Of a stretch of DNA of 43,791 bases, positions 34,059 to 36,820 are shown piece by piece (positions within the stretch are counted from its first letter, which is position 1; each line of letters opens with the position of its first letter). The stretch is from Candidatus Bipolaricaulota bacterium (GTDB taxonomy: Bacteria > Bipolaricaulota > Bipolaricaulia > Bipolaricaulales > Bipolaricaulaceae): NCBI GenBank assembly GCA_014360995.1, contig JACIWL010000011.1:1-43791 (forward strand). The letters run 5' to 3'. The position numbers were made by a program, and so were the translations under genes. The notes below the pieces were generated by a model. The model was given only the letters and a program-made list of their open reading frames with translations, did no database searches and was not told where the DNA came from.

Positions 34059-34069
34059 TGGGTTTAGCT

Positions 34070-34143
34070 GCGCCCGTAGCTCAGTAGGACAGAGCGGCCG
34101 CTTCCTAAGCGGCAGGCCGCAGGTTCGAGTCCTGCCGGGCGCA
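34070..34143 (+). tRNA. tRNA-Arg(CCT), CCA not encoded
   Basis: Acceptor GCGCCCG/CGGGCGC with discriminator A; D stem GCTC/GAGC; anticodon stem GCCGC/GCGGC with loop TTCCTAA (anticodon CCT); T arm GCAGG-TTCGAGT-CCTGC. The 3' end is followed by GTTTCTTTTTTCCCC rather than CCA, so CCA must be added, and the T-rich run may end transcription. The tRNA-Pro and tRNA-Ser genes here do encode CCA. Confidence 0.96.
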
Positions 34144-34158
34144 GTTTCTTTTTTCCCC

Positions 34159-34187
34159 TTTACACAAAGCCAACCATAGAGTATAAA
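34159..34187 (+). promoter_or_regulatory. Promoter of the PiT phosphate permease gene
   Basis: TTTACA (34159-34164), 17 bases, TATAAA (34182-34187), then a leader of about 17-20 bases holding a G-rich ribosome site (34202-34208) before the ATG at 34211. Confidence 0.6.
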
Positions 34188-34210
34188 GCCCACCATACAA
34201 AGGGGGGGCG

Positions 34211-35149
34211 ATGTGGGCAGTGCTCCCGGCGTTGTTCATGGGCTGGGCCCTGGGGGCCAACGACGCGGCCAATGTATGTGGCCTGGCCGTGACAGTGGGA
34301 GCCATTCGCTACCGCACCGCGGTGGTCCTCACCGCCCTCTTTGTGGTGTGCGGAGCGGCCTTAGCTGGCTCCGCGGGGATGAGTACCTATGGGGCGCTCG
34401 CCGCTCACAACATGGCCGGGGCGTTCCTCGTGGCCCTCGCCGCTGGGCTTACCGTCACCGTTATGACCTGGCGGGGCCTTCCGGTGTCCACCTCCCAGGC
34501 CGCGGTGGGCGCCATCGTGGGCGTGGCCCTGGCCAGCGGAAAACCCGTGGACTGGAGCGTTTTCGGCCGCATCGCACTCTCCTGGATCACCTCGCCTCTT
34601 GGAGCGCTTGCCATCGCCTATTCTCTTTACCGGTTCCTCACCCCACTTTTTGAGCGCAAGGTCTTTGGGCTTACGGGCTTTGATCAATTCCTGCGCTTCG
34701 GTTTGATTCTAATAGGGGTCTGGGGAGCCTATGCTTTGGGTGCCAACAACGTAGCCAACGTCACCGGCGTCTTCGCTGGAGCAGGAGTGCTTTCCCCGCT
34801 TTTGGCTGGGCTTATTGGCGGAGGAAGCATCGCGCTGGGCGTTCTCACCTACTCCCGGCCGGTGATGGAGACCATCGGACAGAAACTCGTGCAGATCGGC
34901 ACCTGGCCGGCACTTTTGGCTTTAGTGGCCCAGGCCGCTGTTCTTCAGCTTTTCACGGCTATAGGTGTTCCTGTCTCCTCATCCCAGGCCGTGGTGGGGG
35001 CGGTGGTGGGGATCGGGCTGGTGAAGGGGGTGACGGCGGTGAATCTCCGCCAGGTCTTGGCTATTCTTCTTGGCTGGGTTCTGACCCCCGTTTTTGCGGG
35101 AATTTTGGGTTTGGTCCTGTGGTTTAGCTTTGGTCGCTTTTTTGGTTGA
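34211..35149 (+). CDS. pit: PiT-family inorganic phosphate transporter
   Basis: A 312-residue membrane protein with the duplicated PHO4/PiT signature: GANDAANVCG near residue 16 and GANNVANVTG near residue 178, each followed by a SSSQA-like loop (PVSTSQAAVGAIVGVAL; PVSSSQAVVGAVVG). About nine hydrophobic segments. It carries metal-phosphate symport at low affinity. It sits alone between tRNA-Arg and tRNA-Ser; the -35 of the tRNA-Ser promoter overlaps its stop codon. Phosphate uptake fits with the secreted phosphoesterase at 20.5 kb, but the two are 13 kb apart. Confidence 0.93.
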   Translation: MWAVLPALFMGWALGANDAANVCGLAVTVGAIRYRTAVVLTALFVVCGAALAGSAGMSTYGALAAHNMAGAFLVALAAGLTVTVMTWRGLPVSTSQAAVGAIVGVALASGKPVDWSVFGRIALSWITSPLGALAIAYSLYRFLTPLFERKVFGLTGFDQFLRFGLILIGVWGAYALGANNVANVTGVFAGAGVLSPLLAGLIGGGSIALGVLTYSRPVMETIGQKLVQIGTWPALLALVAQAAVLQLFTAIGVPVSSSQAVVGAVVGIGLVKGVTAVNLRQVLAILLGWVLTPVFAGILGLVLWFSFGRFFG

Positions 35150-35174
35150 GGTTTGAGGAGCAAGCTCCTATACT
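35146..35174 (+). promoter_or_regulatory. Promoter of the tRNA-Ser/SRP RNA unit
   Basis: TTGAGG (35146-35151, overlapping the pit stop codon), a 17-base spacer and TATACT (35169-35174) end 9 bases before the tRNA. It is the only promoter visible for the following two RNA genes. Confidence 0.65.
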
Positions 35175-35183
35175 TTTTGTGAC

Positions 35184-35274
35184 GGAGGGGTGGGCGAGCG
35201 GCCGAAACCACCTGCCTGGAGAGCAGGTGCACCCCAAAAGGGTGCCGCGGGTTCAAATCCCGCCCCCTCCGCCA
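35184..35274 (+). tRNA. tRNA-Ser(GGA), CCA encoded
   Basis: A class II tRNA of 91 bases including CCA. Acceptor GGAGGGG/CCCCTCC with discriminator G and CCA; anticodon stem CCTGC/GCAGG with loop CTGGAGA (anticodon GGA); long variable arm GCACCC-CAAAA-GGGTGC; T arm GCGGG-TTCAAAT-CCCGC. The next base after CCA is the first base of the SRP RNA helix. Confidence 0.97.
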
Positions 35275-35549
35275 GGGTCCGTGCAGGGTGGGGGGGTAGC
35301 GGTCCCCTGGTTCCAAAACCCGCTATACGTGGAGCCCATGGGCCCTCCGAGAGGCGGGGTGGCGGAAGCGGCCCGGGAGAGGCGGCGATGACGGCCGAGC
35401 CCCCTGCGACGCAGGCCGGTAAACCCCGCCAGGCCCGGAAGGGAGCAACGGTAAGCCGTAACCTGCGGGTGATAGGGGACCCCTTGGCCCGAGCCTACCG
35501 CCCGGGCGCGCCCGGAGGCCTTGGCCCCGACGGGGGTCCGCACGGACCC
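35275..35549 (+). ncRNA. ffs: Signal recognition particle RNA, large (Alu-containing) type
   Basis: Domain IV is unmistakable: the CCAGGCCCGGAAGGGAGCA core (GGAA tetraloop at 35437-35440, asymmetric loop AGCA at 35444-35447). The ends pair perfectly, GGGTCCGTGC (35275-35284) with GCACGGACCC (35540-35549), giving about 275 bases. The 5' part holds Alu-domain-like GGTAGCGGT (35295-35303) and CCCGCTATA (35319-35327), as in large SRP RNAs of Bacillus or Thermotoga. It guides ribosomes making membrane proteins together with Ffh. It abuts tRNA-Ser with no spacer and ends 5 bases before the convergent PqaA gene stop, leaving no room for a terminator outside that gene. Confidence 0.92.
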
Positions 35550-35554
35550 ACTAT

Positions 35555-36820
35555 TTATGGCCCAACCACCTGAGGCGGCGTGGAGAAAAAGGCCCTCAGC
35601 CCCTCCAATTCAAAAACCACCTCAAAGAAAACCGCTTGATACCCCTGCTTCGCGTCGATCTTCACCTCGCCCTCCCCGGGGCTAAGCCTCGTCTCTTCCC
35701 AGCGGGCTTTCCGGAAATCCCGGGAGGAGCTCTCCGCCCGCCAAAGGGCGACGCTTTTCGCTGGCCAATCCTCGGAAACCCTTATGAAAAGACCATCTTC
35801 AAGGTAGCGATGTTCCACACTTACCTTGGGAAGAGGCTTTCCTTCGGCCACCAAGCGACAAAAGGCGATGATGGTGGGAATAACCCTCGTCCAGTCAAGA
35901 ACGTTATGCCCAGCGTTGGGCACGACCAAAAGCAGTTTCGGTTCGGGAAGACCAGGCCAGTAAAAGTTCACCCCGTCCACCGTCCAATAAGGATCGTTCG
36001 CCCCGAGGATCACCAGTTTGGGCATGGTGTAGGCGTACGCGTAAGAATAAGGATCGACGAGCCACAGAAGCCTTGCGGCCTCCGGAACCCTGCCAAGCTC
36101 TAGCCAAAGACCCCTTTGCGCGTAGTCCGAAAGCATGAACGAAGGTCCTCCATAACACCGCTCCTGGTGGACCATCTGCAGGGGAATGTTCACCATGTCA
36201 AACACGATGGGCACCATCCCCACCGTTTTCTCCGGGGCTGTGGCCGCCGCCAAATACGTGGTCCATCCCCGTTTGGAGGCCCCAATCAAGATGAACCCCC
36301 GCACCGGGATGTTCCAGCGCTCAAGGAAAATCGCCTCCAAGGCCTCCATGGCGGCATGGACGCTCCGCACCATCGGGAAAAGAAGGGGCCAATCCGGCTC
36401 CTTAGTTTCCAAGTATTGGGAAAAGGTGTAGGCGATGAGGGCATCTTCCCGAAGCCCAAAGAGGGGCTGGAAGGGGACGTTATGCAAAAGGGCCACGGGA
36501 AGACGGCTTAGGGAACTTACAGTTGCGCATAGCAACGAATCCCCAGGGCTAGGATCCCCGGAGATGTAAAGGACCACCACGTCCCTCACCATCGGGTCCT
36601 TTGGGGAATAAAGGAACAGACGGTGGCGCCAAGGTATTCCCTTCCATGTTTGGGAAAGCAGCAAGATTTCCAAGGAGTCCAAATTTCCCGTTTCCCCAGC
36701 GTTCTCAATTTGCCAGAAAGCTTTGCCTTTCTGGGCTTGCACGTAGTCGAAAAGCTTCATAGGAGGAAAAGCTAATCCCCAAAAAGCCACAAACACAATG
36801 ACCGCCAAAACACCTTTCAT
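35555..36820 (-). CDS. PhoPQ-activated pathogenicity-related (PqaA-type) secreted hydrolase
   Basis: A 421-residue PhoPQ_related family (PF10142) protein: signal peptide (about 1-17), an alpha/beta-hydrolase core with the nucleophile-elbow-like GASKRGWTTYLAAATAP, VPIVFDMVN, GANDPYWTVDG and NAGHNVLDW. The aspartate and histidine of a possible triad (ANDPYW, NAGHN) are visible. Members are found in many bacteria without PhoPQ; the substrate is unknown. GGAGG precedes the ATG. TATTAT around 36856-36861 on the minus strand may be its -10. Its 3' end nearly touches the convergent SRP RNA. Confidence 0.83.
   Translation of the reverse strand: MKGVLAVIVFVAFWGLAFPPMKLFDYVQAQKGKAFWQIENAGETGNLDSLEILLLSQTWKGIPWRHRLFLYSPKDPMVRDVVVLYISGDPSPGDSLLCATVSSLSRLPVALLHNVPFQPLFGLREDALIAYTFSQYLETKEPDWPLLFPMVRSVHAAMEALEAIFLERWNIPVRGFILIGASKRGWTTYLAAATAPEKTVGMVPIVFDMVNIPLQMVHQERCYGGPSFMLSDYAQRGLWLELGRVPEAARLLWLVDPYSYAYAYTMPKLVILGANDPYWTVDGVNFYWPGLPEPKLLLVVPNAGHNVLDWTRVIPTIIAFCRLVAEGKPLPKVSVEHRYLEDGLFIRVSEDWPAKSVALWRAESSSRDFRKARWEETRLSPGEGEVKIDAKQGYQAVFFEVVFELEGLRAFFSTPPQVVGP

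Follow-up and report, generated by a model that had tools for sequence, protein, structure and literature searches.

When an SRP RNA gene follows a tRNA gene with no intervening nucleotide, where does the SRP RNA begin and what would release it? The question is raised by a 43,791-nt stretch of DNA from a Candidatus Bipolaricaulota bacterium (contig JACIWL010000011.1; hereafter the window), in which a tRNA-Ser(GGA) gene runs into a large bacterial SRP RNA gene on the same strand (Table 1). A sequence-only reading of the locus had proposed that both RNAs come from one promoter upstream of the tRNA, that the SRP RNA 5′ end is made by cutting at the tRNA 3′ end, and that serine tRNA supply is thereby tied to secretion. 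Our analysis points, with a probability of about 0.75, to tRNA-Ser(GGA) and the SRP RNA forming one dicistronic stable-RNA unit, expressed from the tRNA promoter and divided by a single cut after the CCA. The promoter 5′ of the tRNA would drive one tRNA-Ser(GGA)-SRP transcript, and one endonucleolytic cut after the encoded CCA would yield both the mature tRNA 3′ end and the mature SRP 5′ end. The joint probably reflects economy, in the zero-spacer packing that the source genome also uses for its tRNA arrays, rather than a means of letting serine tRNA control secretion.

Table 1. Features of the tRNA-SRP RNA junction in window coordinates.
Feature	Position	Strand	Basis
Sigma-70-type promoter-like site, TTGAGG-17 nt-TATACT	35146-35174	+	Motif scan; 9 nt 5′ of tRNA-Ser
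tRNA-Ser(GGA) with encoded CCA	35184-35274	+	ARAGORN, 91 nt; Rfam RF00005, 51 bits
Predicted cleavage site, CCA / first SRP base	35274-35275	+	Helix start, promoter comparison, tRNA spacers, RNase Z likeness
Large bacterial SRP RNA gene	35275-35549	+	RF01854 core plus outer helix pairs

The anatomy of the junction can be read directly from the DNA. The covariance model RF01854 matches 35279-35545 (+) over its whole length (model 1-256) with 104.2 bits, the gathering score being 60, and begins 4 nt inside 35275. Perfect pairs extend the helix outward from there: 35275-35278 (GGGT) pair with 35546-35549 (ACCC), four pairs beyond the Rfam model, giving an uninterrupted closing helix of 10 bp (GGGTCCGTGC/GCACGGACCC, 35275-35284 with 35540-35549). 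Within the window's family, the first three pairs outside the model are present in 28 of 28 loci, joined and detached, and the fourth in 16 of 28, so that the helix usually ends 3 nt beyond the model and the window carries one extra pair. On the other side of the junction, the tRNA has the cloverleaf, long variable arm and serine anticodon GGA of a tRNA-Ser (ARAGORN; RF00005); the Rfam call (35184-35271, 51 bits) stops short of the CCA because the model does. The closing helix opens at the base after the CCA, which leaves a spacer of 0. ARAGORN, RF01854 and the outer pairs together bear out the proposed CCA end at 35274 and SRP start at 35275.

Folding energy was dropped as evidence, since the joint RNA is no more stable than its shuffles (z -1.06; 16 of 100 shuffles equally stable); its MFE fold retains the cloverleaf and the closing helix. 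A phage origin was likewise set aside, 35184-35549 being without a match in 50,697 phage records. The 3′ strand of the SRP RNA has an alternative self-fold (GGGTCC GCAC GGACCC, within 35534-35560) ahead of a T-rich stretch. Runs of at least five T follow this self-fold in the congeners G001-G005, and in the window the T stretch is interrupted (ACTATTTATG). It is possible that the self-folding 3′ strand and the T-rich stretch act as a terminator that refolds later.

The tRNA-Ser(GGA) is the only one among the 44 tRNAs that ARAGORN finds in the source assembly, which is 86% complete, and a joint transcript must therefore give a working tRNA. The promoter-like site ahead of it (1 observed, 0.1 expected) is the sole such site in a scan of 34900-35800, in agreement with the earlier claim that the only visible promoter lies upstream of the tRNA. 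Further upstream, tRNA-Arg(CCT), a transporter-like ORF (34211-35149) and tRNA-Ser stand in succession across 34069-35274; the ORF resembles a Pit-type transporter as judged by eye only, and its stop codon falls within the -35 box. Genus g13 has its tRNA-Arg and tRNA-Ser at most a few nt apart, with no ORF between them.

The arrangement recurs among related genomes, a check that the sequence-only reading had called for. The class-wide pattern required a distance of 158-188 nt between a tRNA T-arm and the SRP tetraloop motif, with the reversed pattern as control. Among 100 genomes from the class, 37 match the pattern (families f1, f2, f4, f5, f7 and f8) and 0 match its reverse, so the junction is not a product of chance; so many genomes with the close arrangement also rule out an assembly error. 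Detached and short-spacer families are among those it does not catch, as are motif variants such as the joined G037 and G057. A search of 60 relatives with RF01854 found the SRP RNA in 48, giving 49 loci, of which one with a partial SRP RNA (L042) and two at contig ends (L007 and L044, both of which fit the joined pattern) were left out of the promoter comparison. The 46 usable loci comprise 23 joined, 6 with a spacer of 12-23 nt and 17 detached; among the detached, 14 lie 88-505 nt from the tRNA-Ser and 3 have no tRNA-Ser in the stretch covered. The helix start was measured in 22 joined Bipolaricaulota loci (L010 and L007 were skipped) and falls at the A of the CCA or at the base after the CCA in 15; in the other 7 it lies 1-3 nt further on.

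The partition into joined and detached loci bears on the main reading. Promoters were scored by a simple consensus count for sigma-70-type sites only, with 8 or more of the 12 consensus bases matched and a spacer of 16-18. An SRP-proximal site of this kind occurs in 17 of 17 detached loci, in 0 of 23 joined loci and in 0 of 6 short-spacer loci, against 1.9% of random positions; the promoter is thus observed exactly where the SRP RNA is detached. In the detached loci the -10 box ends 7-9 nt before the first helix base, 3 nt outside the Rfam model. In most joined loci this base comes right after the CCA. The helix thus ends at one and the same position in the two layouts, which agree on a single SRP 5′ end. 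Among the 23 joined loci, 20 have a site with at least 8 of 12 consensus bases 5′ of the tRNA or of the tRNA-Arg/tRNA-Ser pair, a count from a wider scanned stretch to which the 1.9% chance rate does not apply; the simple scan finds no good promoter 5′ of the tRNA in the other 3, one of which (G048) is at a contig end. The SRP RNA of the window lies directly downstream of the tRNA on the same strand, at a spacer of 0, and the sigma-70-type scans assign it no promoter; this is the layout of a dicistronic tRNA-ncRNA gene. That the SRP RNA instead starts on its own, from within the tRNA gene or at its end, with the contact reflecting only dense packing, we regard as highly improbable: the promoters of the 17 detached relatives do mean that SRP RNA can be transcribed alone in this family, but a promoter-like site at the right distance is seen in none of the 23 joined loci, and the window scan shows solely the site upstream of the tRNA (sigma-70-type in both cases). 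The comparison is good evidence for what would be a joint precursor cut between the CCA and the SRP RNA. On these grounds the earlier proposal of joint transcription, with the SRP 5′ end set at the tRNA 3′ end, has good comparative support (0/23 against 17/17, and 22 of 22 helices 0-3 nt after the CCA or including its A), whereas its tie between serine supply and secretion lacks support, as discussed below.

Lineages separate the two genes with ease. In most genera of the window's family where the SRP RNA was found it is detached from tRNA-Ser, and a tree of 41 SRP RNAs requires a minimum of 4 changes between layouts, 2 of them forced by well-supported branches. In genus g5, G030 (on the tree) and G062 (by its genus label) are joined within an otherwise detached clade, which suggests re-joining, although the branch of G030 is long; genus and family labels of the relatives are tool-assigned. 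Between the two RNAs, 7 of the 14 detached loci with tRNA-Ser in view hold a whole or broken gene of PF05635, the 23S rRNA intervening sequence protein family (G011, G012, G022, G023, G028, G032, G036; L030, L038, L033, L026, L023, L037, L019). Among the other 7 detached spacers, the reading frames of the 4 searched gave no PF05635 match. An element of this type may have driven the tRNA-Ser and SRP genes apart.

Several other variants were seen in the relatives. Family f3 (L045, L046, L047, L049) has a hairpin-like spacer of 12-23 nt, such as GCAGGCTTCGCCTGC, 3′ of tRNA-Ser, and its SRP RNA is shorter and weak-scoring. The partial SRP match in G025 (L042, G025:C21:1611-1722; 77 bits, model 103-214) is that genome's second and lies on a separate contig; it could be either a second copy or contamination. 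The joined tRNA-Ser has AAA in place of the encoded CCA in genus g39 (G096-G098) and in L150, and CTA in G029 (L034), so that in these cases CCA must be added and the cut must be elsewhere. Together with the 7 of 22 helices that start 1-3 nt past the CCA, the AAA of g39 and the CTA of G029 mean that an exact cut after CCA cannot be a universal rule.

Which enzyme would make the cut in the source genome is a separate matter. Spacers between its close neighbouring tRNA genes are 0 nt in 6 of 19 pairs and 1 nt in 5 of 19, and a cut between a CCA and the next RNA must therefore be routine there. We favour RNase Z, at roughly even odds, and the cutter would most likely be the T. maritima-like RNase Z that the genome appears to encode. 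This candidate (L209:1474-2316) scores 261 bits to PDB chain 1ww1 (tRNase Z), which we take to be the T. maritima enzyme, and 59 bits to the next solved RNase Z. Its sequence contains neither a PxKxRN motif nor a GP motif and carries an RLKxxYxxL stretch; the PxKxRN motif has been linked to inhibition of RNase Z by CCA. The T. maritima enzyme is described as cutting immediately 3′ of CCA (PMC7479834). The candidate has a standard HEAT (residue 206) and HST (221), unlike the type described for T. maritima, and only "T. maritima-like" can thus be claimed. At 135 bits it is below the TIGR02651 cut-off of 293. RNase Z-type matches are present in 30 of 30 genomes, joined and detached alike, none of them above the TIGR02651 cut-off, so RNase Z does not track the layout. 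A stem that begins at the first trailer base may also hinder RNase Z.

A cut by RNase P is the less probable alternative. RNase P would act where the SRP closing helix begins, as on E. coli SRP precursors (pre-4.5S RNA), leaving the tRNA with a finished CCA and the same ends as a cut by RNase Z. Bacterial RNase P is known to act on SRP RNA precursors and on polycistronic tRNAs, which it separates (PMC10731613). Its protein and its RNA are both encoded in the source genome, and it would likewise divide the zero-spacer tRNA pairs (6/19); but the T. maritima-like RNase Z candidate would suffice, and the 1-3 nt offsets in some relatives suit neither enzyme better.

The joint is not confined to Bipolaricaulota. 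GTDB contigs were scanned for a tRNA T-arm near an SRP tetraloop, a pattern that admits short spacers only, and yielded at least 120 loci. Among the 120 matches listed, 6 lack a tRNA at the T-arm, 52 lack a large-SRP anchor and 1 has a weak helix, and the remaining 61 were measured by anchored helix search. The tRNA end and the helix are 0-4 nt apart in 22 of these 61, among the matches listed, including 5 from Bipolaricaulota (L070, L126, L150, L097, L139). Of the five, L097 matches G055 in its junction sequence. Another, L139, is titled Neomarinimicrobiota and has the same junction sequence as Bipolaricaulota G027:C177, and its record looks mislabelled or misbinned. At least 17 joined loci are thus from outside Bipolaricaulota, with phylum labels taken from record titles: 11 Bacillota (Clostridium and relatives), 2 Calditrichota and 1 each from KSB1, Neomarinimicrobiota, Fimbriimonadaceae and a Fusobacteria-labelled MAG. 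All 6 of the 17 that were checked with Rfam and ARAGORN were confirmed. The SRP RNA adjoins tRNA-Ala(CGC) in KSB1, Calditrichota and Neomarinimicrobiota, and recurrence with tRNA-Ala partners means that the identity of the tRNA is not essential. In L130 a tRNA-Ser(GGA) lies upstream of the SRP-adjoining tRNA-Ala(CGC), and in Fimbriimonadaceae (L158) a five-tRNA array terminates in the SRP RNA.

These partners bear on the idea that shared transcription and processing match SRP output to serine tRNA supply. The joint does occur in several families of the class, and in other phyla it recurs mostly with tRNA-Ser(GGA), among the matches listed; such a regulatory coupling nevertheless seems very unlikely to us. 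In KSB1, Calditrichota and Neomarinimicrobiota the direct neighbour is a tRNA-Ala(CGC), the window's family often has the two genes detached (in most of its genera, with at least 4 changes of state on the SRP tree), and unrelated tRNAs in the source genome are packed with the same zero spacing. For these reasons the link to serine was rejected.

Beyond the main reading of one dicistronic unit lies a wider one that we put forward tentatively. In Bipolaricaulota and several other lineages, the SRP RNA might be produced solely as a tRNA 3′ trailer, with the tRNA promoter as its sole promoter and a 5′ end obtained only through tRNA 3′ maturation. Protein export would then be bound to the promoter of a tRNA and to the activity of RNase Z or RNase P, in an obligatory coupling that was repeatedly gained and broken. 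The window's family offers a natural experiment, as a promoter of its own accompanies each SRP RNA that is separated from the tRNA. Cultured clostridia (Clostridium celatum, C. thermopalmarium and Thermobrachium celere) carry the joint as well, and it can therefore be tested at the bench. If confirmed, it would represent a bacterial housekeeping ncRNA whose 5′ end is set by tRNA 3′ processing, as has been proposed for Nanoarchaeum, and it would aid annotation, since SRP 5′ ends could be assigned from the tRNA end.

The best reading by comparison with known systems is a dicistronic tRNA-ncRNA precursor of the sort known in plants and Nanoarchaeum, here probably with an SRP RNA as the second member. 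In the open-licence literature, as far as the available excerpts go, we recognized no paper that describes a bacterial tRNA joined directly to an SRP RNA. Polycistronic bacterial tRNA operons and SRP precursors cut by RNase P are similar in that a tRNA-processing endonuclease separates neighbouring stable RNAs, but the SRP RNA is not described as a direct continuation of a tRNA in the accessible text (PMC10731613). In Mycobacterium tuberculosis, 4.5S RNA is listed beside serV (tRNA-Ser), and a joint RNA is not described in the sections available (PMC2764107). Nanoarchaeum equitans tRNA-C/D box sRNA pairs and plant tRNA-snoRNA genes place an ncRNA directly 3′ of a tRNA, and for Nanoarchaeum it was proposed that tRNA 3′ processing by RNase Z automatically sets the sRNA 5′ end (PMC3491384). 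A comparable tRNA-sRNA case is reported from Thermococcus (PMC4247193). The window is like the Nanoarchaeum and plant pairs in having an ncRNA gene immediately downstream of a tRNA; it differs in that the ncRNA is an SRP RNA, the host is a bacterium and the tRNA encodes its CCA. The 7S RNA of Methanothermus fervidus, linked to a tRNA-Ser gene (Haas et al., 1990, cited in PMC3035299), likewise combines an SRP RNA with tRNA-Ser, but in an archaeon and in linkage to an rRNA operon.
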